Below are positions 2,701-29,917 of a DNA stretch of 35,411 bases, in pieces; positions within the stretch are counted from its first letter, which is position 1, and each line of letters starts with the position of its first letter. The stretch comes from a virus. The position numbers and the translations under genes are program-made. The notes below the pieces were generated by a model. The model did not search any database. It was not told where the DNA came from and saw only the letters and a list, made by a program, of their open reading frames with translations. The stretch lies in the IMG/VR virus record IMGVR_UViG_3300001533_001107, positions 1 through 35,411 of that record; one strand, written 5' to 3'.

Positions 2701-4335
2701 TTAATGAATCAGGTCTTCGCGTGCCGTCGACACGACATCAAGCAGCCTTGAGACGAGGTTTTCATCGCCAATTACACCAAGCGCACCGATAATCCGAAAC
2801 GCATGAACCGCGCCCTTGGCCCGGGCGCATTGCAACAAATAGGAGTTTCGAATATTGCGCAGGTCTTTCGTCAGCAAGCGCAAGACAAAATCACTCGCCA
2901 TGTTCTGAATGTCGCGGCCTCGAACAAACGCCGTCAACAAACAGTCCATCGCTTCATATTGATCCGGTGCCTCTTCATCGTCATCAGGGAAGATACCCAG
3001 ATCATGCAGCAGGTCTTTTGTAAAGACGTTCTCGTCAAGTCCATCGACTTCCAGGATAAAGGACGCGACCATGCCTAGCAGACAGGCGATTAAGCGAGCC
3101 TGGTCGATGTCATCAATCGACTGCTCCAGCTTGTCGGCCAAAACATTGCACGACTCGGTGATCTTCTCGACCGAGGCGCTGTGCCTCGTATGTCGCGGAT
3201 CCGGGGTATCGTTGTAGTAGTCTTCGCCTTCGCCATCTTCACCTCCCGCAACGCCGCGATCCTGCGCCTTGTAGGCACGTAGGTCGTCGTTCGTCACGAT
3301 TGTGCGCATGTCATTCCAGTCATCCAAGTCAACACAGAAGGCAGGACGCTTGATCGCGTTCGGCAGCTTTGCCAGCACGCCGGCATCGTCCGTGTACTCC
3401 CAGCTGCGCAGGATGTCGCACTCGCCTTCCGGCAGGCAACTGTCTTTCGGGGCGGCATAGCCGTGACGGCTGATGTAGACAAGCTTGTCGCCATGCTTGC
3501 GCTGCATTTGCTCAAGGCCCTCCCCGGCGAACTGCAGCCGTTTTTTCTGGTAGCACTCCGGATTGTGGCACATGGCATCGGCCTCATCCTCGCCGAACAG
3601 GTCCGGCTGGCTCGCGCTGTTGAACGGGCAGCCATGGCAGCGCGGCTTGATCTGTTCCAGGAACTCCTTGGGCGCGTCTGTCAGTGAGACAAAGCGAATC
3701 GAGATCAACCGCGAAAGCTCCGTCACCGAGATTGAACGATAGGACATTTGTTCCGCCGGATGCATTTCGGCAAACAGCTTCTTCTGCAGCACGGCATCCA
3801 GCCTCGCTACCAACTCCAGGTGGGCAGCCGACCAGCCGCAGATTGTCGAGCCTTCCGTCTCGAAAAGCTGCTGCCAGGCCTCGGCCAGATTGGCCAGGGC
3901 CGCGCGACGGTAAACCCAGGATACCGACCGGCCGATGTTGGCGGCCACCGCTGCCGCATCCGGACGGGCGTCGAGCAACATGCGGATTGACCGGCCTTCC
4001 TCCAGCGGTGTCAGATCCTGGCGTTGCAGATTTTCCAGGGCGGTCGCCTCGATCGCCTGCTCGTCTGTCATCTCGCGCACAACGGCTAGTATGGTGTCAG
4101 CCTTGATCGCCTTGTGCGCGGCCAGACGGCGGGCACCGCAGCGCAGATCCCACTTGCCTTTCTTAGCCGGGTGCTTGCGCACCACGACCGGATGCAGCAG
4201 GCCATGTGCCTCGATGCTGGCCGCCAGATCCCTGATGTCCGTGTCCTTGGGGTCCGGTGCCCTCCTGGGATTGTCAGCCGTGGGGATCACGTCCTTGACT
4301 GGTAATGCCTTCAGTTCCGCCTTTTGCTCTGTCAT
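2701..4335 (-). CDS. ParB/RepB/Spo0J-family protein with Cys cluster
   Basis: A 544-residue ParB-family protein. The N-terminal ParB/Srx nucleotide-binding domain has the DNPRR segment (21-25), the motif CGARRLAAH (66-74; CTP-binding ParB enzymes usually have GERR) and ENLQRQDLTPLEEG (101-114). A helix-turn-helix follows at about 126-150. Residues C233, C236, C256 and C261 form a possible zinc-binding cluster, as in some plasmid and phage ParB proteins. The C-terminal half is acidic and helical. ParB proteins load onto parS-like DNA using CTP and usually work with a ParA ATPase; no ParA is visible here. A strong site (AAAGGAGGGTGAG) supports the start. Role in partition, replication or recombination is open. 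Confidence 0.85.
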   Translation of the reverse strand: MTEQKAELKALPVKDVIPTADNPRRAPDPKDTDIRDLAASIEAHGLLHPVVVRKHPAKKGKWDLRCGARRLAAHKAIKADTILAVVREMTDEQAIEATALENLQRQDLTPLEEGRSIRMLLDARPDAAAVAANIGRSVSWVYRRAALANLAEAWQQLFETEGSTICGWSAAHLELVARLDAVLQKKLFAEMHPAEQMSYRSISVTELSRLISIRFVSLTDAPKEFLEQIKPRCHGCPFNSASQPDLFGEDEADAMCHNPECYQKKRLQFAGEGLEQMQRKHGDKLVYISRHGYAAPKDSCLPEGECDILRSWEYTDDAGVLAKLPNAIKRPAFCVDLDDWNDMRTIVTNDDLRAYKAQDRGVAGGEDGEGEDYYNDTPDPRHTRHSASVEKITESCNVLADKLEQSIDDIDQARLIACLLGMVASFILEVDGLDENVFTKDLLHDLGIFPDDDEEAPDQYEAMDCLLTAFVRGRDIQNMASDFVLRLLTKDLRNIRNSYLLQCARAKGAVHAFRIIGALGVIGDENLVSRLLDVVSTAREDLIH

Positions 4336-6352: not shown

Positions 6353-6640
6353 CTATTGTTTTGCCAGGTACTTGTTGACGATTTCCTCGATCTTGTCCTG
6401 CACGATCTGCTGCTGCCCGACATCCTCTCCAATTTCCTGCAGGCGAGTCTCGGCCTTGATGATTGTGATTACCTCGCGGATCTGCGCGTCGGTGACAGTG
6501 CCCTCAAGACCCTCTTTGGCCAGGGCCGCCTGGACGCCGGTGGCGACGATGTCTTCGGTGATCCCGAGCCTTTGCATTGTCGAGCAGCCTGTGACGGCGG
6601 CGAGGGCGGCGGTTGCGATGGTGAGTGTGATCTTCTTCAT
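6353..6640 (-). CDS. Small exported lipoprotein, possible spanin component
   Basis: A 95-residue protein with a lipoprotein signal peptide (MKKITLTIATAALAAVTG before C19, lipobox AVTGC). The mature part is helical and charged, with a putative coiled coil at about residues 60-92. Acylation at the cysteine would anchor it in a membrane, probably the outer one in a diderm host. Its place in the lysis region suggests an outer-membrane spanin or a lysis accessory factor, but no inner-membrane spanin partner is recognised. AAAAAAGGAG precedes the ATG. Confidence 0.65.
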   Translation of the reverse strand: MKKITLTIATAALAAVTGCSTMQRLGITEDIVATGVQAALAKEGLEGTVTDAQIREVITIIKAETRLQEIGEDVGQQQIVQDKIEEIVNKYLAKQ

Positions 6641-7414: not shown

Positions 7415-7952
7415 GCAGTATCTCCTTTATCTTGGGGGCAGATTTGCAATTTTTTCGACGAAAATGGACAAGATGCGTTTGCTGCAGATGGCTGAGCTTT
7501 TTGCCATCCAGCAGGTTAAGCAGAGCATTACGCTGGGCTGGCGGAATATCGGTAGCCGCCTCTACAATCTGGCGCACTGCCTGCGCGGCATCCCGGCAGA
7601 CATCTGCAAATGCATTGGATTTGTCTTCAACCTCTTCCACAGACATCACATGGCTATAAGGCCGGACAGGCATATCCAGGCTTAAAACAAATGGAGCATC
7701 GCTTGCACGCGTGTTGCCGGTGCCCCGGACAACAGGCGACAGCCTATTTACATATGTCAGTATCTGCTGCTTGACGTGCACCATAGCGTGCGTGGTAAAC
7801 GCCGCGATATCAGCGTTGTAACTGCTGGCTGCCCTCGCGAGGCCGACAATACCGGCACTGATGATGTCGTCGTAATCCGGGCGGTGGCGGAACGGTCGCG
7901 CGTATTTGTGCACAAGGCCGATATTGTCTGTTACCAATGATGCATCAATCAT
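7395..7952 (-). CDS. Phage-encoded sigma-70-like factor
   Basis: A 185-residue protein with a recognisable sigma-70 region 2: NIGLVHKYARPF, then DYDDIISAGIVGLARAASSYN and AAFTTHAMVHVKQQIL, followed by a region-3-like stretch ending SLDMPV. The C-terminal 60 residues (IPPAQRNALLNLLDG onward) could be a divergent region 4. Region 2 binds the beta-prime subunit and melts the -10 element, so this protein may redirect host RNA polymerase to phage promoters. The ATG overlaps the upstream stop (TGATG). Its end overlaps the start of the papain-like gene by 20 nt. Finding it after tail genes is unusual. Confidence 0.75.
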   Translation of the reverse strand: MIDASLVTDNIGLVHKYARPFRHRPDYDDIISAGIVGLARAASSYNADIAAFTTHAMVHVKQQILTYVNRLSPVVRGTGNTRASDAPFVLSLDMPVRPYSHVMSVEEVEDKSNAFADVCRDAAQAVRQIVEAATDIPPAQRNALLNLLDGKKLSHLQQTHLVHFRRKNCKSAPKIKEILHDNLTA

Positions 7953-8593
7953 CACTGCACCCCCAGTGTGTGGCGGCGGTAGCAGAGTGGATCGGTCATG
8001 CTCTGCAGTATAATCTCGGTCGGCAGACTCTGCAGGCCGCTGACGGCCCATACGGCGCTGTTGGTTGTGGCACCCTTGTTGGAGTCTGCCGACGCGAAAA
8101 CCGCCTGCGGAACCCAGCTCTGTGCCCCGATTACGCGGGTGCCGAGCTGCACCAGGCTGCCCGCCCCGGCGGCGGTCCAGCGCAGTGTGACGCTGGCCCC
8201 GTTGGTTACGGTTGCGGGCGGCGCGACAAACACAACACCGGCAATGCTGACCCGCGCCTCGACTACTGTCTGCGGCTGGCGGTATTTCGGCTGGCTGCTG
8301 ACCCGGACGCGGGCGTCGGTGGAGAGGTACCGCGGCTGGTCCGGCAGCTCGAAATACCAGACGTTTGTGCCGTAGGTCGATGTCACGCCGCGTGCCAGCG
8401 ACTCGTATGTCGCGCCGCCATCGAGCGAGAGGGCGATGTCGACGGGCTCGGGGGATAGGCGCAACCAGGGGTATTGATCCATGATTGCGTTGGCCGTGGT
8501 GTTGCTGGGCCAGTCCCAGGCAACGGGATACGTGTTGTCGGCGGCGGCCGACAAGGCGGAAAGCAGCAAGCAGAAAGCGGTAACACGGATCAT
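7952..8593 (-). CDS. Exported protein with Sec signal peptide, tail-region
   Basis: A 213-residue protein with a clear signal peptide (MIRVTAFCLLLSALSAAA, cleavage before DNTYPV). The mature part is beta-rich with regular strands (VDIALSLDGGATYESLA, TVVEARVSIAGVVFV, GASVTLRWTAAGAGSL) and could form Ig-like or lectin-like domains. It is coupled by ATGA to the end of the long tail-fibre gene and itself ends in TGATG with the sigma factor. No family is recognised. An exported beta-sandwich next to a tail fibre may be a host-surface or receptor-masking protein; this is inference. Confidence 0.6.
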   Translation of the reverse strand: MIRVTAFCLLLSALSAAADNTYPVAWDWPSNTTANAIMDQYPWLRLSPEPVDIALSLDGGATYESLARGVTSTYGTNVWYFELPDQPRYLSTDARVRVSSQPKYRQPQTVVEARVSIAGVVFVAPPATVTNGASVTLRWTAAGAGSLVQLGTRVIGAQSWVPQAVFASADSNKGATTNSAVWAVSGLQSLPTEIILQSMTDPLCYRRHTLGVQ

Positions 8594-11371
8594 GGGTATG
8601 CCTCCAGCACAACGCGGTTTGTGACGCCGCCGATCACAACCAGCAGGTTTGTCCCTGACACGGCAAACTCCGGCATATCCGCTGCCGTTAGAATCGGACT
8701 TGCCCCGATCATGGCAGGCTCTCCCTCATCAACATACAATCCGCCGCGTCCGACATTCAACGCCGCGTAACCGGGTCCGGTTCCTGATGCTCTCACCACA
8801 ACCCCCGTCGTGGCGCCATCAACGTATACGCTGACACCAGATGAGCCGTTATCATCAACATGCAGCGGGAAGGGGGCCCCGCCCTGGCGGTGTAATATCG
8901 CCGAGTAAATATATGTATGCTTGTCGACCCCAGGAAGCAGCCTGATGTCGCGCAGCGATTTGATCTCAACCCGGCCATACGCAGGATCGATTGAGATCGC
9001 ATCAACCCAATTAGTTTGCGTCTGATCGTAGATCCGGAACACCGGACGGTCAGTTTCCGTAATCCAAAATCCCAGATGCGGCATATACAAACCGCTATAA
9101 TCCATACCCATGTTGAAATCCGCAACTCCGGCAACCCGGAACCGCTTATGCTCACCGTCGCCCTCATCAACGTCGATTGTTACATCGCCTCGGATCAGCG
9201 TATCTGAATCGTTCAGGGAAGATCCGCCGACCTGCAACGTGCCATTACTGATTGATGCATACTGCCGCGCCTCTATCTCAGCCAGCGACACCGCCCGGCT
9301 GCCGTCATTGAGATTAACGGTCTTGCCGCTCTGCATCGTGATGCCGCCGGTGCCGAAATCGGCGACCAGATTGCCTCCGGCAACATACCTCCATACATTA
9401 TCGGACGGACGATGCCAGCCCGTATCCGGATCAGAGAGGAATCGCAAGGCCAGGCTGCCCCCGCTGCCATCGTACATCTGCACATTGGCGGTGAGGTTGC
9501 TCTCCATGAGGTTAAGCGTGCCGTATGGGAGCGTAAGGCCGTCCGCGCCGAACCAGGCGAGGATCTGCTGATCGAGCACGATCGGCATGATTGAGTTGGT
9601 GCCGTCAAGCGCCCGGTAGAAGGCCGCCGAGTCGGCGGGCACGTTGGCGATGTCGTTGGTTCCGGCGGCGTAGACTACGTTGCTGCTCAGGATCGACATC
9701 CATACGATCTTGTCTTGCGCGAGATCAAAGACCGGAGTCGTCTGGTCGACCGTCGGCGTGTCGATCACCTTGCCCTTGATCCGGGCGACGGTTGTCGTCT
9801 GCAGGTGGCTGCCGGTCACGTCGCCACTGATCTGATCGCCACGCCGCCAGCTTCCACCGCTGACACACGCGCCTGCAGTGCGTTGTAGCTGGCAACGGTG
9901 CACAGCAGGTTGACCGCCGCGTCCAGCTCGAACTGGGTAGCCAGGTCAACGTAACGGTGCTCGTTGACGCTGTTGTACCACAGCAGCCCGAGCCCGTTGG
10001 CACGCGACGAGGCGTTGACCGCACCGCCCTTGATCTTGTCGACAGACAGCGGCGAGGAGAGAGTGCCGGATACGTCGCCGGTGATCACGGTGCTGCGGAC
10101 GTACTGGACGTTTGCCGCCTCGCGGAGCTGGTCTCCTGGAGGGGTATCGACAAGCAGGTGCAGCCCGGCGAAATCCCTTGTAAACGCTACGCGCTCGGGA
10201 AACGTCCAGGTGTAGAGGTCGACCTGCGACAGGGACAATCCGTAGCCGGTATAGTTGACGAACTTGACGGCGAACTCGTTTGTGGAGACGATGTTGTCGC
10301 GAATGGTATCGTAGCCGAACCAGGGGCCTGCATCTGTCTCGGCGTACTGCGCCGACCAGTTTGCAGTACCGGGCGTGGTGACGATGCGGGAGACGCACTG
10401 CGTCATGCCGCCCATTACCAGGTACCCCTCATCAGCATCGAGTGTAATCTGCCCGTCTGTCATCGTGGCGTTGTATGCCATCCAGCCGTTGTTGTGCTGG
10501 AATACGCCATCGGCGATCTCCAGCCAGTCGACTGCGGCAAACGACTCCGTCAGCATGTGCGTGTGGTCATTCCCGTCGACAAGGCCGCGCACGGTGCTGA
10601 TCTCGGTATCAACGTAGGTCTGCGAGACGGACGTGGACTGCAGGTTGTCGATGTCCGCCTCGATGCCGGACAGATCCACGCTGCCGTGCTTGTAACCACC
10701 AGCCCCGCCGTTGAGCGTCGAGTCCCAGACAATCGCCTCCATGTCCGCCGGGGTATCCGCCTCGGTCGGGAATGGTCTGCCGCGCGTGGCGACAACCGTG
10801 GCCTGCGTCGAGACGCCGGACACATCGCCGCCCATGTTGGCCGACTCCAGGGCAATGTCGATCAGGTCGTCCTGGGCGGCATCCACCACCGCCTGCGTTG
10901 CCACATGCCCGTCAAGCTGATCCTGCACGCCCGCAACACCGTCGCCGACCAGGTCGCGTCAGCCGCCCCCGCACCGCGGATCGTAAGCGTACCGCGCGCC
11001 CACTCCTGGACTCGCGTTTCATCCTGGAACAACAACTGGGCGAAATAGACGCCGGTTGTCGCGACCTGTGTGTTGTTTACCGCAAAGGCAAACGTGCTGT
11101 TCGTGAGCGTGCCGGTGATCATCATACCCTCGTTGGCCGTATCGCTCTCGGCATAATAGAGCATGCCTGTCCAGCCGGTTAACTCGACATTCGGAACGGG
11201 AAATCCGCCGAGCTTTACAGGCACCTGGACGCGCGGCGTCGTCTCGTCTTCCCACACAAGCCGGAAGTCGGACGCGGGCGTACGCAGGTCAACGGGGATG
11301 GTGTGGATTTTTTCGACGGTGGCAAGCACTGGCAGGGCAAGAATGGCAACAAAAAAACAAAAACGACGCAT
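8590..11371 (-). CDS. Large tail fibre/baseplate protein with BppU-like N-terminus and signal peptide, two frameshifts
   Basis: Three overlapping reading frames combine into one protein of about 927 residues. It starts with a Sec leader (MRRFCFFVAILALPVLA) after AGGAGG, then a BppU-like Ig domain (VDLRTPASDFRLVWEDET to RGTLTIRG). Next come repeated fibre modules in which GDVSGTLSSPLSVDKIKGG and GDVTGSHLQTTTVARIKGK are homologous repeats on either side of the second shift, which argues for a single ancestral gene. The frame changes near 10951-10960 and near 9838-9843, each equal to one missing base. Neither inner piece has a ribosome site. It likely forms the receptor-binding tip of the tail. 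The signal peptide is unexpected. Confidence 0.7.
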
Positions 11372-14651: not shown

Positions 14652-15026
14652 TCAGGGGCTCTCGTCCCATCCCCAGCCGGCAGGGACGTCAATCCACTTG
14701 GTATACATCTCGTAGACAATTTCTTCGGTAGCGAATCTTGCCGGTTTTTTGTCCGGCGCTATACGGTGCTTGATACAAATGAATTTTCCGGTTGACGTTG
14801 TCTTGTTTACGACGGCGTCACCGATATTGGCATTGAAAGAGGTTGCGACGTCGCCTATCTTGGTTGCCCATGCGGACACCTCCGAAGCGGTTAGCAGCCT
14901 GGTTGCCGACAGCACTATATGCTGCCGGTACTGCAGTATTTCGGCACCGTCGTCACCGGTCTTTGTTCCAACGTCTATCTGGTCGTCTATGTCCTGCCAA
15001 ACCCACGGCTCTACCGCATTACTCAT
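14652..15026 (-). CDS. Tail-associated hypothetical protein
   Basis: A 124-residue protein coupled to the end of the tape-measure gene by ATGA, with a G-rich ribosome site. Visible features are a tryptophan-rich N-terminus (PWVWQDIDDQIDVG) and a beta-rich centre. No family is recognised. The position directly after the tape measure is where small distal-tail or baseplate proteins are encoded, so a tail-tip role is plausible but unproved. Confidence 0.5.
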   Translation of the reverse strand: MSNAVEPWVWQDIDDQIDVGTKTGDDGAEILQYRQHIVLSATRLLTASEVSAWATKIGDVATSFNANIGDAVVNKTTSTGKFICIKHRIAPDKKPARFATEEIVYEMYTKWIDVPAGWGWDESP

Positions 15027-16778
15027 TCGAGCCCCCCGGTTTCCTTTTTGACAAGCTTGTCAAGATGCCTGTTTGTCTCTTCCTGCAACCGGACCATTCT
15101 CTCCATCGGGTCACGAGCCCCGCCTACACCATCCTGGAGGCGAGTAAATCCCTCCCCCATCGAGATTGACTTTCTTTCTATCTGGCTACCGGCAGCCAAA
15201 TTGCTGGGCGCGGTTTTTGTTTTTGTCACATCCTTCGGCGCACTCTTGCCATGGCCAAACGCGGCCAGGATTTCTGCATCCGAGTGCTTGCTGTATTCCT
15301 GGAAGTTGGCGCGTACCATTTGCAGGAAGTCATCATCTGATTTACCAGCCACCGGTTCCGTGATAGCGGCCGCGTTCTCGGCCCTCTCTGTCTCGACAAG
15401 GCCCATTAGCTTTGCAACAGAGGCTTTCAGCGAGTCCCCGCCGCCAAGCATGTCGCCGTACTCCGCGCCCGGTCGGTAGCCGCCTGCCAGTAGCTTGTCC
15501 GGATCGACGCCTAACTTGCCTAAGCCTCTTGCAAACTTCTTTGCGCCCTCAACGTCTTTCTTATCGATCAGGGCTTTAAACTCTCGCTCAAGGTCAAGGT
15601 ACATTGATGGGTCGTGAGCGAGCACATTCTTCAGTCCAGACGCTCTTCTGCCATCGGGATCAAGCCCGCCGCCAAGTGCCCCCATTGTGAAGTGGATCAT
15701 TGATGCTTTGCCTTTTATAGCCGTCTTCGCCGCCTCGCCTAGGACGCGCCCCAGAATCGGCATGGCCTTCAGCAGGACACCAACGGCCGCACCGGCACCA
15801 GCCTTGAACGCCTCCCAGATAACACTGCCAATCGCCTTCATCACATCGCCGCGCTTGCCAGGCGTGGCCAGCGCCTTGCCGACCGCGCTGATGTCGATCA
15901 GCAGCTCCTTGACCTTTGCCGCCCATTTCCTGGACAATCCCGCTTTCCTTCATTTTCGCGATAAAGCCACCGAGCCCCCGCTCCATCGCGCCGAACACCG
16001 AGGCGAGGCCAAGCCCCTCGACAATCTGGTTACCGACCTCCACGCGGAAGCTCTTGAAGATGGATACCAACCCCTTCCACCGATTGGCCAGGCTGCCCGA
16101 AGTGCGTACCGCGTCCCCCTGCGCGTCCGTAGTCCCCTTCTGGATCATCTTCAGGCGCACCAGCAGCTTCTCTTGCTCGCTCAAGGGCTTGTTCGCCTTG
16201 CCGAATCCCATGGCCGCCGCCTCGGCCTTCATCGACGCCTCGGTGATTACAACGCCGAATTTACGGACATTCTCATGATTGCCGACCAGCGCACCGATAA
16301 TCCGCTCGATCGCCTCGCCGCTGTCCATGTCCTGGAACGATCCGATGTCCACGCCCAGCGCCGTGATCTCCCGCGAGAGCTTGGCCGCCTCTCCGCGGGC
16401 CACCCCCATCGGTACCAGGGTGTCCTGGATGCTGGACATCCACCCGCGCACGTCGTATTCGCTGCGCTTGGTGCTGCTGGCAAAGTCCTTGGACCACTCC
16501 CGGGCGGATCCGGACATGGCCTTGAATACCGCGTCGAACTTGCTCTCCATCTCGCCGACGGCCATAGAATCCTTGACCGACCAGATCGCGCCTGCGATCG
16601 TCCCCGCGAAGCCGACCTGCAGGCCACGCTTCAGGATGGTGCCCATCCCCCGGACCATGCTGCTGGCGGCGTGCATCCCTGCCTTGGAAAGCTTACCGAG
16701 TGCACTGATCGCGCCGCCCACGCTGCGCCCGAGCAGGTTGTCTCCAAGTATCCTGTATTTCAGATCACGGTTGCCCAT
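15023..16778 (-). CDS. Tape measure protein, frameshifted
   Basis: Two frames combine into a protein of about 584 residues. The first part has a hydrophobic N-terminal region (SKAGMHAASSMVRG, FAGTIAGAIWSVKDSMAVGE) and the tape-measure helix pattern including ITALGVDIGSFQD and LANRWKGLVSIFKSF. Removing one G from the GGG run at 15939-15941 joins KMKESG to LSRKWAAKVKELL and then a hydrophobic region (AIGSVIWEAFKAGAGAAVGVLL). The tape measure sets tail length, here implying a tail near 90 nm by the usual length-per-residue rule. It also carries membrane-penetrating helices. The frame break may be a sequence error, since both halves keep good coding character. Confidence 0.8.
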
Positions 16779-21280: not shown

Positions 21281-21832
21281 TTATTTTGCACCGCCTACAT
21301 ATACCTCGTAGGTCACGCTGTTTGTCCCCGTGTTCGATACCACTAGATTGCCGTTCGTGCCCACCGCATACCCGGTGGCATCCGGCGCTACCATCATAAG
21401 CAGACCGCCAGGCCGCACGTGGACCGTGCCGTTGGTGCCCGTCCCCGTCCATTGAAAAGCCTCCGCATCGTCACTGCCGACCGCGATAGGATCAAGGTTA
21501 TCGGCATCAGCCGCGACAGCCAGGAACCGCACCGATGCGAACGTGATCGGATCGCCGAACCCGTCGGTTGCGCTCGTCAGGTCGATTGTCGCCGCCTGCG
21601 AATTTGTCAGCGTGCCAGACTCCACCACGATGGTATTCATCTGGTTGGCGTTCGTGCCGCTGGTATGCGTCCAGCTAAGCAAATCGGAAAACGTCTCGGT
21701 TAGCGACGACGCACCGGTCGTCTTCTGGTGTGTCCAGTTCGGCAGTACCACAAGCCGACCCGAGAACGTGGTGGCGGCTACCAGCGGCAGCGTAAAGACA
21801 AGCAGCATGACATAGGCGAGAATTCTTTGCAT
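21281..21832 (-). CDS. Exported decoration/fibre-like protein with Sec signal peptide
   Basis: A 183-residue protein beginning with a Sec leader (MQRILAYVMLLVFTLPLVAA). After cleavage it is beta-rich: SVRFLAVAADADNLDPIAVG, then VHVRPGGLLMMVAPDATGYAV and SNTGTNSVTYEVYVGG. The mature half resembles capsid-decoration or small fibre proteins common next to phage head genes. The ATG at 21832 is set by GGAGGTG just upstream; the frame is open much further up but crosses the terminator. The leader sequence is unusual for a virion protein. Confidence 0.62.
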   Translation of the reverse strand: MQRILAYVMLLVFTLPLVAATTFSGRLVVLPNWTHQKTTGASSLTETFSDLLSWTHTSGTNANQMNTIVVESGTLTNSQAATIDLTSATDGFGDPITFASVRFLAVAADADNLDPIAVGSDDAEAFQWTGTGTNGTVHVRPGGLLMMVAPDATGYAVGTNGNLVVSNTGTNSVTYEVYVGGAK

Positions 21833-21878
21833 CGGGCACCTCCATTTGATATGGATGTCCGATTCATCAAGCCGCCAC

Positions 21879-21919
21879 AAAAAAAAGAGCCCCGCCTTGA
21901 TGCTATCGCGGCGGGGCTC
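21879..21919 (-). terminator. Strong rho-independent terminator
   Basis: On the minus strand a perfect 10-bp GC-rich stem (GAGCCCCGCC with GGCGGGGCTC) and a 13-nt loop is followed at once by eight T residues. It lies after the 118-residue gene that ends the capsid block and before the exported decoration-like gene. It should limit read-through from capsid genes into the connector and tail genes, so the latter may have a separate promoter or need antitermination. Confidence 0.88.
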
Positions 21920-21944
21920 CCCAACACTGGAGGGTGATCCAGAT

Positions 21945-22301
21945 TTATCCATTCTGTTCGATAAAGGCCTGAAGATCAAGCACAGTTGCACGCGCAGCCG
22001 GTTTCTTCATGCCGAGACGCTCGGCGATCTCATCCGCCCGCGCCCGCAAGTCGGCCTTGCTCTCGTTGTTATCACCGTCAACCTGCCCCGGATTCCCGGG
22101 CTCATCCGCGGCCACCGCCTGGGTGGGCTCCGGGTCGATAAAAGGCGCTTTGCCTTCCGCGACAACCTTCGCCTGTGCATCAGCCACCAGACCACGCAAC
22201 TCGTCCTCGTCGGCGGTCGCCGGAGCCTTGATCTTAAGCGCGTCAAGCGTATGCGCAAGTCGCGCCCGCCGCCTCGCCCTGTTGAATCCTGTCAGTCCCA
22301 T
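21945..22301 (-). CDS. Hypothetical helical protein after the capsid genes
   Basis: A 118-residue protein with two helical ends (GFNRARRRARLAHTLDALK and ADLRARADEIAERL) and an acidic, Pro-rich middle. The C-terminus ends in a Rho-N/SAP-like helix pair (KKPAARATVLDLQAFIEQNG). The site GAGGGAGG precedes the start. It is the last gene before the terminator. The arrangement resembles small head-completion or DNA-binding phage proteins; function unknown. Confidence 0.55.
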   Translation of the reverse strand: MGLTGFNRARRRARLAHTLDALKIKAPATADEDELRGLVADAQAKVVAEGKAPFIDPEPTQAVAADEPGNPGQVDGDNNESKADLRARADEIAERLGMKKPAARATVLDLQAFIEQNG

Positions 22302-22329
22302 GATTTGCCTCCCTCGCTAAGCGATTCCC

Positions 22330-23118
22330 TTACTGCGTGATATCGGCGACGATCTCATTGGTGACGCCGCCCGAAGACACGTACTGGAGCGCGGTACCCG
22401 TCACCTGGAAGAAACCGCCATCATCGCCGGTGGGGGACAGGCCACTCAGATCAAAACTAACATGTTCGACATCCACCGAGTCGTCAACGTATTGGTCGCT
22501 GTCGACGCTCTCGGCGCTCATGTGTGCCAGATCAATCGCGCCGGCCGCAATATGCTCGGAATCGACAGCGTCATCCGCAATCTTCGTTCCGTCAACAGCA
22601 TCCGCGGCAAAATGAACCGTATCGATCGAACCGTCGACGTAATGCTCGCTGTCGATCGCCTCGTCGGCAATCTTCGCCCCGGTGACGGCATCGGCGGCAA
22701 GCTCGGCCGTGTCGACCTCGCCGTCCGCAAGTTGACCGTCAACGAAGGTGCGTGTCGTGGACGCTTCCGAGCGAATAATGTAGACATCATTCGTGACTGC
22801 CGCCTGGTCGCTGTCCAGCTTCAACGCAGCTCCCGCCGGAACGGAAACAATCTGGTTTGCCGTCCAGGCGGTATCGCCCGCCACAGTCAAAACCTTTTGA
22901 TCGTACTGCACGCCACCAACAACAACCGAGAGCGTCACGCTCTGCGATGTTTCAGCGGATGGGCTGAACCAGATTGAATCAATCTCGTACGCCCGACCGA
23001 GGTCGTTGGTGAACGTCTCTACGTCCGTGACCTGTTCGCTGATTGCGCCAATCTCGGCATGAGCTGCGATGGCAAAAACACAAAAACCCGACAATACCAC
23101 CATAATGTAACGTTTCAT
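22330..23118 (-). CDS. Exported fibre-like protein with signal peptide and DxVDSEH repeats
   Basis: A 262-residue protein. Residues 1-21 are a classic Sec leader (cleavage after AHA). A beta-rich domain follows (SVTLSVVVGGVQYDQKVL, SVPAGAALKLDSD). Residues of about 135-230 consist of ten-residue imperfect repeats of the form ADDAVDSEHI, AAGAIDLAHM, SAESVDSDQY, typical of trimeric fibre shafts. The end is a short head domain. It lies right after the major capsid gene, so a capsid-bound fibre is the natural reading, yet the leader predicts export. The ATG at 23118 follows AGG at a short distance; an upstream in-frame start is less likely. Confidence 0.65.
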   Translation of the reverse strand: MKRYIMVVLSGFCVFAIAAHAEIGAISEQVTDVETFTNDLGRAYEIDSIWFSPSAETSQSVTLSVVVGGVQYDQKVLTVAGDTAWTANQIVSVPAGAALKLDSDQAAVTNDVYIIRSEASTTRTFVDGQLADGEVDTAELAADAVTGAKIADEAIDSEHYVDGSIDTVHFAADAVDGTKIADDAVDSEHIAAGAIDLAHMSAESVDSDQYVDDSVDVEHVSFDLSGLSPTGDDGGFFQVTGTALQYVSSGGVTNEIVADITQ

Positions 23119-23194
23119 GATCCTGTTTCCCTTCTTGTTTGTGGGCATACGGCCAGCCGTATCGCTACGGACTGGCCGCCCCGGTTTTTATCAC

Positions 23195-24196
23195 TTAGCC
23201 GTTCGACTTGATTGCGACCACGCCGCAATTCTTCTTCTCCCACACACGGTCCCAGGCTTCCGCATCATCCAGTTCGGTATTCGCGGCCGTGTCGCCATCC
23301 AGATCACTGGCGGCATACTTGGCGGCAAACCCGATCGGGTGGATGATCAGCGTCTTGCGCATGGTCATGACCGTGTCGCCGGCCAGGATGTCGCGATCCC
23401 ACTCCACTCCCTCGTCGGTCGGGATGTGCTCGGCACGCGCAAGGCTGCCCTTCGCCATCAGGTACGACGTATAGACCAGGCCGCTGGTTCCACCGGCAAC
23501 CACGGGCACCGTGTCATCCGTAATAACCTCAAGCCCCTTGTAGCTGTTATACAGAAGTTTGCCTTCGCTGTCACGGATCGCCGTGATCTGGTCCAGTGCG
23601 GCCAGGTTCGCCTCGATCTGCGAGTGCATCACGATCGCGGAGAGCTTGGCCTTTGCGTCGCCGAGCTTCTGCGCGGCGTTGATGATCGCGGTCCCGCTCA
23701 TCTTGTTCGTGGCGGCCGCATTGTCGCCATCCGCGATGGAGATGTCGTGGATCAGATCGGACGAATCAGCATCGGCATTGTCGGCAAACACGCCGGTCAG
23801 CGTCGCGATCAGGATGCCCTGCTCGTCCTTATTCCACCACTGTGCCCAGCCGTCGGCAATCGCGGCCGCCGGATCCGCGCCGGAACGCACCGGGGCCAGA
23901 TCATTCACGCTGCGAGCATCGCCACGCCCGAGAGCGTACGCAATCTGCTTTCCCGTGGAAATCCCGCCGACATCCAAAGCCGCGCTGTCGGAAAGCACTT
24001 GCGAGCTACCCGTAAGCGGATTGAAATGCGGTACGTTGATGAATGGGGCACCACCGGCGCGCAGCTTCTCCTGTAGCGTCTGGTTCGGCACCATGATCCC
24101 GCTACGCAGGAAACGATTGTTCTCCACCGCCTGTTGGCGCATGTACGGTATCCACACCGAGGGTTGGATAATATTAGATATTTTAACCTTAGCCAT
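23195..24196 (-). CDS. Major capsid protein
   Basis: A 333-residue protein located directly after a scaffold-like gene and portal. It starts AKVKISNIIQPSVWIPYMRQ, has a capsid-type N-terminal arm and a central region (GLEVITDDTVPVVAGG, then TSYLMAKGSLARAEH) that matches the P-domain/A-domain turns of HK97-fold coat proteins, and it ends with strands VMTMRKTLIIHPIGFAAKY. AGGAG precedes the ATG. It is expected to form the icosahedral shell. No protease gene is visible, so maturation may proceed without head protease. Confidence 0.82.
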   Translation of the reverse strand: MAKVKISNIIQPSVWIPYMRQQAVENNRFLRSGIMVPNQTLQEKLRAGGAPFINVPHFNPLTGSSQVLSDSAALDVGGISTGKQIAYALGRGDARSVNDLAPVRSGADPAAAIADGWAQWWNKDEQGILIATLTGVFADNADADSSDLIHDISIADGDNAAATNKMSGTAIINAAQKLGDAKAKLSAIVMHSQIEANLAALDQITAIRDSEGKLLYNSYKGLEVITDDTVPVVAGGTSGLVYTSYLMAKGSLARAEHIPTDEGVEWDRDILAGDTVMTMRKTLIIHPIGFAAKYAASDLDGDTAANTELDDAEAWDRVWEKKNCGVVAIKSNG

Positions 24197-26521: not shown

Positions 26522-26597
26522 TGGCAGCGGAGGCAGGACTCGAACCTGCGACCTCCTGGTTATGAGCCAGGCAAGCTTCCAACTGCTCTACCCCGCA
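26522..26597 (-). tRNA. tRNA-Met (CAT anticodon), initiator-like
   Basis: A complete 76-nt cloverleaf with encoded CCA. Anticodon loop CTCATAA on a CCTGG/CCAGG stem; T arm GCAGG-TTCGAGT-CCTGC; D stem GAGC/GCTT. The 1:72 pair is T-T, an unpaired end, and the D stem has A11:T24, both characteristic of initiator tRNAs. Only two of the three usual G:C pairs at 29-31:39-41 are present (29:41 is T:A), and the discriminator base is G. It lies between terminase and portal with no gene overlap. Confidence 0.9.
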
Positions 26598-26619: not shown

Positions 26620-27879
26620 CTAAATAAGCAAGCTGCTGCCCCTCGGTCCGTCCAGCTTCATGACCATGTAGCGGATCGTGTCCATCGCGTGATCACGGTC
26701 TTTGACCGGTTCCTCCTTGTCGTTGCGACCGTCCTTCGATTCCGGCCAGACGTAATCGTAGAATTCGCCGATAACCTCCTTGCAGGATTCATGGATAATA
26801 ATGCGAGACTTTCCGTCCGGTAGCACCTTCAACCGTTTCTTGACGGCTGCGATCCCCGTCGATACAGCCTTATTGGCCGCGACCGTGATAATGCCGTGGC
26901 GATGCAGAGTTGCCCGGTCCTCCGCGTCGTGGTCCGCGATTGTCCACAAAAAGGGGCCGGGCGTGATTGCGTTTATCGTCACCGCATGATCCTCCACAAT
27001 CACGCCTGCAACATACCGCTCACGCACAATCCACAGCCGCCCGTCCGGATCAAGCAGTCCCCATAGGCACACAAACGGGTTGGAATATCCGAAGTCGATG
27101 CCGCGCACCTTGCGCCAATGCTCATGCCCCGCAGGCAACGCACCACGCCACACATGCACATCCTCGTCAAATTCCTCGTAAACCGCCCCGTCCGCCTCGC
27201 ACCATTCACCGTTGAGCATCCGACGCCGGGCAACACCGGACATCGCCTCCAGCGTCGCCAGGGCGTCAGCGGGCAGGTGGGGATTGTCATACGGCGTCCA
27301 GTGCATTCGCCGCCAGGTATCAGCATCGGCAAACGGCTTGCCCGTGTCGGGGTCTTGACGCAGCACCCCTGCCTTGTACAACCAGTGTCGCTGATTCTTC
27401 GGGTTGCAGTCCAGGAGCAACTTGCGGACCGGAACGCCCGGATGCGCCAGCCGGGTAAGCACCGTCTGCACGGTCGGCCAGGTCAACTGCGTCGCCTCGT
27501 TCAGGAAAATATGCCCGTACTCCGTCCCCAGAATCTTATCCACCCGCTCCTTGTCGTCCAGGCCGCCGATGCGGATGAACGACCCGTTGCGGTGCCGGAT
27601 CTCCAGGTCGCCATCGCGGAAAGACCAGTCGCGCCGCCCGGCCAGCAGCCGCCGGAGAGTGTCTTGGTAGAGGCTGGCCTTGGCGTGCTCGCGGAACTTG
27701 CGCCCGATCAGGATCGGCACGCCTGGGTAACGCGCCGCCTCGACAGCGAGCCACGCGCAAATACACGCAGTTTTTGTGGAGCGCGCGCCGCCGTCAAACA
27801 GAATGCGCCGCACGTCGGGCGACTCTAGTATATCTCGCCAGGCAGCAGATTGTTTGGCGGTAAGGCTAAATGGTTGCAT
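26620..27879 (-). CDS. terL: Terminase large subunit (Terminase_3/PBSX type)
   Basis: A 419-residue packaging motor. ATPase: Walker A-like DGGARSTKT (29-37), Walker B HIFLNE (about 123-128), coupling motif LLLDCNP (about 154-160). Nuclease: acidic residues in GIDFGYSNPF (D262), ADHDAED (about 316-320) and DHAMDTIRY (D400). It cuts concatemeric DNA and pumps it through the portal. The ribosome site is weak. It is separated from the small subunit by about 2.7 kb, an unusual gap filled by other genes. No frameshift is seen. Confidence 0.9.
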   Translation of the reverse strand: MQPFSLTAKQSAAWRDILESPDVRRILFDGGARSTKTACICAWLAVEAARYPGVPILIGRKFREHAKASLYQDTLRRLLAGRRDWSFRDGDLEIRHRNGSFIRIGGLDDKERVDKILGTEYGHIFLNEATQLTWPTVQTVLTRLAHPGVPVRKLLLDCNPKNQRHWLYKAGVLRQDPDTGKPFADADTWRRMHWTPYDNPHLPADALATLEAMSGVARRRMLNGEWCEADGAVYEEFDEDVHVWRGALPAGHEHWRKVRGIDFGYSNPFVCLWGLLDPDGRLWIVRERYVAGVIVEDHAVTINAITPGPFLWTIADHDAEDRATLHRHGIITVAANKAVSTGIAAVKKRLKVLPDGKSRIIIHESCKEVIGEFYDYVWPESKDGRNDKEEPVKDRDHAMDTIRYMVMKLDGPRGSSLLI

Positions 27880-28777: not shown

Positions 28778-29076
28778 GCATCAGAGACCCCCACGCTAGC
28801 CAAATCTTATCGGGCGAGAAACGCATCGAGAACCGGTCATGGGGCGAGCGCGTGCGCGGCCCCATCGCCCTCCACCGGTGCGGCAAGGGCGGCGCCATCA
28901 TCGGCGTCATGGAGATCACGGAGGTCATAGGCTGGGAGGAGGCCCTAGCTCGTTACCCGGATCAGGACGCGTACATCTCCGGCCCCCTCTGCTGGGTGAT
29001 CGGCTCCGTCAGGCAATTGCCCGAGCCGATACCATGCCCAGGGCGGCTGTCGCTGTGGGAGTGCCCCGACCTTTAG
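28765..29076 (+). CDS. ASCH-domain protein
   Basis: A 103-residue protein with the ASCH pattern: RALSIRDPHASQILSGEKRIENRSW at the start (ending in the conserved E-N/R-W), a strand GPIALHRCG and the segment GAIIGVMEITEVIGW, then GPLCWVIGSVRQLPEPIP. ASCH proteins form a PUA-like barrel proposed to bind RNA; some, such as E. coli YqfB, hydrolyse N4-acetylcytidine. AAGGAGG precedes the ATG. Its 3-prime end overlaps the convergent PAPS-reductase-like gene by 68 nt. The molecular role in the phage is unknown. Confidence 0.8.
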   Translation: MRALSIRDPHASQILSGEKRIENRSWGERVRGPIALHRCGKGGAIIGVMEITEVIGWEEALARYPDQDAYISGPLCWVIGSVRQLPEPIPCPGRLSLWECPDL

Positions 29077-29917
29077 CCGGATGTTTAGCCCGGCGGAACT
29101 CCTGCCTGGCAAGCTCCGCCTCAAGCATAGGGTACATGGAGAGCACCCGGTCGTAATCGTCGGGAGCCCACTCCCGCATATGCGCCATGTGCCGGTACGC
29201 CGGGAGCCCGGCCATGCTGCGATTAACGCGCAGATAGTCCTTGGGTAGCAGGATGCCCGCTGCCTGGATCGCGTCTATGATCTCGGATTTTTTCCAATCG
29301 AAACACGGATAAAATGTCATGTGCTGCGGGTTCTTGCCGCCGATCTTCTCCACCCAGATGCGCCGGTCGAGGCTATCAGTCATGTTGATCCCAAACGCGC
29401 ACCAGGCGTTAGGCAGGTGCAAATCACGCTGCAACGCCTTGATCTGGTCGTGCTTATCGTACCACCATTCAACCAGTGCGATAACTTCCTCTTCGCTGCC
29501 TGGCGGTTGCCAAAACAGCTTATTGACGGCTTTGATGCAGGCTCCGTCCATTAGCCGGATAATCTCCGTGCCGAATACCCGCTCGTAATACGCCAGCGAC
29601 TCATCGACAAAGCCCAGGTGCGGGACGCTTGCGCAATGGAACGGGATGATGCGGGTAAAGTATTTGCGTAGCTGAAGCCAGGCGGCAATCGAATCCTTGC
29701 CCCGACTGAAGCCAAGAAAACACGTCCCCCCGGACAGGCAAGAAATTTCCTCGCACAGCCGGGAAGACGCGCGCGGAGCAGGTTCAGCCCCCGCCGCCAC
29801 CGCCGCCCCGCCCTGTGCCGCCGGGGACGTTAAGTCCACTTCTCTTCGACGCCATGACTGGCCTCCTTTTTTTTCCGGTTCCGCCGGTTCGGTTTTCAGT
29901 TTGCGGCGTGCCGTCAT
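29009..29917 (-). CDS. PAPS-reductase-family PP-loop protein (IbrA-like)
   Basis: A 302-residue protein with a PP-loop ATP-pyrophosphatase motif GFSRGKDSIAAWLQ (about 69-82), equivalent to SGGKDS in PAPS reductases and adenine-nucleotide alpha hydrolases. Later conserved segments are FGINMTDSLDRR, FYPCFDWKKSEIIDAI and DYLRVNRSMAGLPAYRHM. The first 60 residues are low complexity and probably not part of the core. It is ATGA-coupled to the ParB-like gene at its 5-prime side. This gene pair matches IbrA/IbrB, regulators described on E. coli prophages; related pairs are frequent in phages with unclear function. Possibly nucleotide or nucleic-acid modification. Confidence 0.78.
   Translation of the reverse strand: MTARRKLKTEPAEPEKKGGQSWRRREVDLTSPAAQGGAAVAAGAEPAPRASSRLCEEISCLSGGTCFLGFSRGKDSIAAWLQLRKYFTRIIPFHCASVPHLGFVDESLAYYERVFGTEIIRLMDGACIKAVNKLFWQPPGSEEEVIALVEWWYDKHDQIKALQRDLHLPNAWCAFGINMTDSLDRRIWVEKIGGKNPQHMTFYPCFDWKKSEIIDAIQAAGILLPKDYLRVNRSMAGLPAYRHMAHMREWAPDDYDRVLSMYPMLEAELARQEFRRAKHPAKGRGTPTATAALGMVSARAIA

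Follow-up and report, generated by a model that had tools for sequence, protein, structure and literature searches.

Signal peptides on capsid-adjacent, virion-type proteins in tailed phages of Kiritimatiellia type

Virion assembly in tailed phages is cytoplasmic and is taught as purely so; no tailed phage is known to assemble parts of its virion from the periplasm. SPP1-like phages with a gp13 capsid (Terrisporobacter phage TVCOM_ph1, Acinetobacter phage Ab105-2phi, and Pasteurella phage Pmp13) carry scaffold and capsid genes, then a small FNR-type gene, then an adaptor gene. Proteins of the phrog_22694 family (Streptomyces phage Hiyaa gp9, Microcystis phage Mae-JY04 WWT39696.1, and a protein of Micromonospora phage pMLP1) mostly have their genes between those for the capsid and the connector, and their domain runs from the first residue, with no signal peptide. 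In phage lambda, Lom, an outer-membrane protein with a signal peptide, is encoded inside the tail operon (PMC12309495).

We analyzed the whole of IMG/VR virus record IMGVR_UViG_3300001533_001107, a stretch of 35,411 bases referred to here as the window. Its minus strand carries the structural genes in the order terminase, tRNA-Met, portal, scaffold, capsid, P262, a 118-aa gene, P183, and head-tail and tail genes; the tRNA-Met gene lies at 26522-26597 (minus strand), between the terminase and portal genes. The head region keeps the SPP1-like order, but P262 is inserted before the small gene and P183 after it, at two points where the SPP1-like phages have no genes, and each insertion has a stable hairpin upstream. 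As with lambda Lom, signal-peptide genes lie within the structural operon of a tailed phage; Lom, however, is an outer-membrane barrel unrelated to virion families. The features on which the analysis rests are as follows.

26620-27879, minus strand: terminase.
23195-24196, minus strand: major capsid protein, SPP1 gp13-like (phrog_247, E=1.8e-74), with no leader.
23143-23182, minus strand: intercistronic hairpin between the capsid gene and P262 (MFE -27.9 kcal/mol, z=-3.2).
23056-23118, minus strand: signal peptide of P262, MKRYIMVVLSGFCVFAIAAHA (rule-based score 45.6, site AHA).
22330-23055, minus strand: mature P262, a beta-type N domain followed by shaft repeats of marine tail-fiber type (phrog_892 tail fiber, E=1.8e-23).
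21945-22301, minus strand: 118-aa protein (MGLTGFNRARRR..), with no leader; gene order and N termini as in contigs L013, L014, and L016.
21878-21922, minus strand: canonical intrinsic terminator directly before P183 (GC stem then 8 U, MFE -29.8 kcal/mol).
21773-21832, minus strand: signal peptide of P183, MQRILAYVMLLVFTLPLVAA (rule-based score 45.0, site VAA, Shine-Dalgarno GGAGGTG).
21281-21772, minus strand: mature P183, an all-beta head-region protein of the phrog_22694 family (E=4.2e-18; AlphaFold pLDDT 89.8).
10862-11371, minus strand: tail-region protein with signal peptide MRRFCFFVAILALPVLA (VLA/TVE), the N-terminal piece of a frameshift-broken long fiber gene.
7952-8593, minus strand: second tail-region protein with signal peptide MIRVTAFCLLLSALSAAA (AAA/DNT).

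The host of the phage is most likely a member of Kiritimatiellia, a little-known bacterial class, because the only near terminases found in species genomes are those of four prophage loci (61 to 64% identity) in a single Kiritimatiellae metagenome-assembled genome (MAG). The capsid protein has tblastn matches in 713 phage records; single-sequence scans of viral contigs found no close relatives of it.

Signal peptides were called with a rule-based test that scores a positive n-region, a hydrophobic core, a -3/-1 site, and an N-terminal position. The test called 9 of 10 secreted Escherichia coli controls; when the N termini of the window were shuffled, it called 1.2%. An initial annotation had proposed that two capsid-adjacent proteins begin with signal peptides cleaved at AHA and VAA; P262 and P183 both have the positive n-region, hydrophobic h-region, small -3/-1 residues, and N-terminal placement of Sec/signal peptidase I substrates, each from its own start, and the remaining head genes of the window gave no call. 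It likewise called the two tail-region leaders that the annotation had listed, and no leader was seen on any capsid, portal, or terminase protein, here or in the other phages examined. A detail that differs from the annotation's description is that the leaderless 118-aa gene separates the two leader-bearing genes. Judging by gene order and N termini, that gene is the counterpart of the small gene directly after the capsid gene in SPP1-like phages; its counterpart in L014 is annotated HeH/LEM.

P262 starts at ATG 23118 and reads MKRYIMVVLSGFCVFAIAAHA and then EIG; an earlier in-frame ATG at 23148 has no Shine-Dalgarno sequence and lies within the hairpin arm. Its mature part carries TAELADDAV-type shaft repeats in two stretches, as in phage fibers, and relatives in these repeats (L004 to L012) start without a leader. 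A single-sequence scan of viral contigs with P262 returned shaft-repeat matches and no close relative. The structure model, a single-sequence monomer, has a pLDDT of 51, and a trimeric shaft is putative.

P183 starts at ATG 21832, with GGAGGTG 4 bases upstream, and not at 21991 as implied by the open reading frame listed at 21281-21991; it reads MQRILAYVMLLVFTLPLVAA and then TTF. The phrog_22694 profile matches residues 105 to 235 of the longest open reading frame, and relatives align across the whole mature part at 29 to 49% identity, end to end in the case of the Hiyaa, Mae-JY04, and pMLP1 proteins. The family has its home in the head region: in the isolates Hiyaa, Mae-JY04, and ppBeUSDA76-1 it sits between the capsid and head-tail connector genes, the place that P183 occupies in the window, and in the unannotated pMLP1 it lies upstream of a tape-measure-like gene. 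The mature part is predicted to be all beta. A PDB search with the P183 profile gave no match, every Foldseek match in the PDB had an E value above 0.001 and a TM-score below 0.5 by query length, and the viral Foldseek matches were uncharacterized phage proteins.

A family member usually, though not by definition, has its N terminus at the domain start; P183 instead carries a 20-aa leader. In a three-sequence alignment with the pMLP1 and Mae-JY04 proteins, this leader shows as a clean insertion of 20 residues behind the Met. A single-sequence scan of viral contigs with P183 found no close relatives; a scan with the three-sequence alignment reached 80 viral contigs, which yielded 58 distinct relatives whose starts could be resolved, and in 56 of these the mature domain begins immediately, mostly as M-[A/P/S]-L. 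Homologues that begin after the leader, which the initial annotation had named as evidence against itself, are thus the rule, but the start codon and Shine-Dalgarno sequence of P183 are unambiguous, and therefore its leader is an addition to a normally leaderless family and not a miscalled start. The two exceptions (L251 and L317) bear leaders of their own. The mature part of the L251 protein is 49% identical to that of P183, and the leaders share almost no residues while keeping their type; a second signal-peptide gene just upstream repeats the two-gene layout of the window.

A comparable addition occurs in the RcGTA-type spike base NF048002, a virion-type domain that in the host-unassigned contig L051 follows a clean 26-residue leader ending before profile position 1, as it also follows a leader in L061; it differs from P183 in protein family and in its terminase-proximal position. 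Host-unassigned phage contigs with leaders on structural-region proteins include L061 (4514-4849 and 9543-10124) and L043 (4561-9062); the proteins concerned are a spike base, a head-fiber-like protein, and tandem tail-region genes.

The annotation had read the leaders as a common theme and not as chance, and their recurrence in related prophages, contigs, and Kiritimatiellia prophages with other capsid families bears this out. Over all recognized capsid genes, 9 of 22 Kiritimatiellia-type phages, with four capsid families among them (phrog_247, 267, 283, and 1005), have a signal-peptide gene touching that of the capsid, against 0 of 38 others (Fisher p=3.4e-5). This count is biased in that 7 of 8 capsid seeds, like the window's own, came from already positive loci and some phages are related. 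Such a gene adjoins the capsid gene in two of the four MAG prophage loci and in viral contig L017 (capsids phrog_267 and phrog_283). Among terminase-anchored Kiritimatiellia regions with a phrog_1005 capsid, it lies just after the capsid gene in L159, L188, and L189 and just before it in L147 and L161.

A seed-independent rate, which also counts lysis lipoproteins and some host genes, is 90 of 533 genes in Kiritimatiellia terminase regions; viral contigs whose terminases are related have 7 of 366. The same comparison with other Verrucomicrobiota proved unusable: terminase-led runs gave equal rates (39/314 in Kiritimatiellia versus 19/158), the latter driven by host type II secretion and enzyme genes in runs that are mostly host operons. 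Because other Verrucomicrobiota reach the same rate through host genes, the argument rests not on crude rates but on the evidence from capsid-adjacent genes and anchored domains, and by that evidence the theme is real. Its extension to all phages of the phylum was rejected, since the isolate P8625, a Puniceicoccales phage, has according to its authors no protein with a signal peptide (PMC4642752), and its NF048002 relative has no leader.

Four prophage loci of one Kiritimatiellae MAG (L089, L090, L091, and L092) have terminases about 85 to 87% identical to that of L017, and the two with readable head regions differ in capsid family (phrog_267 and phrog_283), an instance of capsid-module swapping.

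Leaders also occur on proteins of the tail. The window protein at 10862-11371 aligns weakly to a BppU-like cluster; elsewhere, leaders precede a protein with a C-terminal Phage_tail_C tail-tip domain (L166), a BppU_N-like tail family (L188; its match to PF10651, at E=1.4e-4, falls slightly short of the Pfam cutoff), and collagen-like fibers (L090 and L091). Within families, the leaders diverge in sequence but stay of one type. Two of the leader-bearing families also have leaderless members in Kiritimatiellia (L137 and L139; L151 and L153), and stop codons 4 to 6 codons upstream leave L137 and L139 no room for a leader. Because these members are fully leaderless, virion-type domains that already exist gain or lose leaders, and export is not needed for the function of the two families.

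We give close to an even chance to the reading that P262 and P183 are Sec-exported accessory proteins of the virion exterior that join particles at lysis. P262 would be a short fiber and P183 a beta-sandwich decoration on the outside of the virion; both would be made with cleavable Sec signal peptides, exported, trimmed by host signal peptidase I, and held in the periplasm while particles are assembled in the cytoplasm, attaching once lysis opens the inner membrane, and tail-tip and fiber counterparts of the same phage would take the same route. The n/h/c structure, AxA-type sites, and own start signals of both leaders are consistent with this, as is the P183 leader ending exactly where leaderless relatives begin; the leaderless members of the two exported families and the moron-like placement of the genes, inserted into an SPP1-like order with P183 behind a terminator, count against it. 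The periplasmic stage in particle maturation that the initial annotation had raised is accordingly only one reading of the leaders. A wider proposal, plausible if somewhat short of probable, is that tailed phages of Kiritimatiellia have two-compartment virions, with heads and tails built in the cytoplasm, the outer decorations and the parts for receptor binding sent by Sec to the periplasm, the two joined at lysis, and leaders gained and lost on ordinary virion domains.

The main alternative is that the genes are exported morons, whose products descend from virion proteins but no longer belong to the particle and act at the cell envelope or extracellularly, for instance as surface-acting accessory proteins that block receptors or readsorption. 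The two insertions lie at different points of a conserved order, P183 about 45 bases beyond a strong terminator, leader-bearing and leaderless versions coexist, and Lom provides a precedent from a tail operon (PMC12309495). We consider this rather unlikely, as in several phages the only obvious fiber and tail-tip candidates, which the virion needs, bear leaders, and the capsid-adjacent position is repeated across four capsid families. Insertion with an upstream hairpin is a look common to accessory decoration genes and to morons, and no clear promoter was found. It is improbable that the hydrophobic N termini stay unexported, as a capsid or baseplate plug or as a membrane tether for assembling heads: encoding in morphogenesis operons and cytoplasmic assembly would suit such an element, but AxA-type sites and positive n-regions are kept while leader sequences diverge, and nearly all P183 relatives have no leader. 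An annotation artifact, with translation beginning past the leaders or with leaders that are chance hydrophobic stretches, is very improbable: P183 relatives do start after the leader, but P183 has a strong Shine-Dalgarno sequence at its upstream ATG and no start codon at its mature start, the shuffle rate is 1.2%, and the recurrence at capsid genes has a p value of about 3e-5.

The domains are of known kinds; in the literature covered, which is incomplete and leaves most subscription journals outside, we found no mention of tailed-phage virion proteins that bear leaders, nor a description of this combination with an export signal or of its recurrence in phages of one bacterial class. That recurrence hints at export of exterior virion components through the host membrane in some tailed phages. 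If the exported proteins are parts of the particle, the rule of all-cytoplasmic assembly would be broken; if they are not, virion proteins would have a large and so far unnoticed set of exported relatives. Either outcome bears on the annotation of phage structural genes and of secretomes.

Disulfide formation was rejected as the explanation of export: neither P262 nor P183 contains cysteine in its mature form, so they give no periplasmic-oxidation argument, and exported Kiritimatiellia proteins are not enriched in it (0.81 versus 1.10 per 100 residues). Capsid-adjacent signal-peptide genes are immediately preceded by hairpins in the window (21878-21922 and 23143-23182, minus strand) and, recognized by eye only, in L091 (upstream of 11533) and L090 (upstream of 15041); the hairpins possibly tune the level of these genes against that of the capsid protein.

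Elsewhere on the minus strand, the long tail-fiber frame (8590-11371) is split into three overlapping open reading frames in different frames (10862-11371, 9816-10928, and 8590-9903), by either sequence errors or breakage of the gene. A frameshift divides a tape-measure-like gene within 15023-16778 into two parts (15660-16778 and 15023-15937). The presumed lysis region includes a small spanin-like lipoprotein with lipobox VTGC (6353-6640). A PAPS-reductase-like gene and a ParB-like protein, at 29009-29917 and 2701-4335, were recognized by eye; the annotation of P8625 likewise includes a PAPS reductase.
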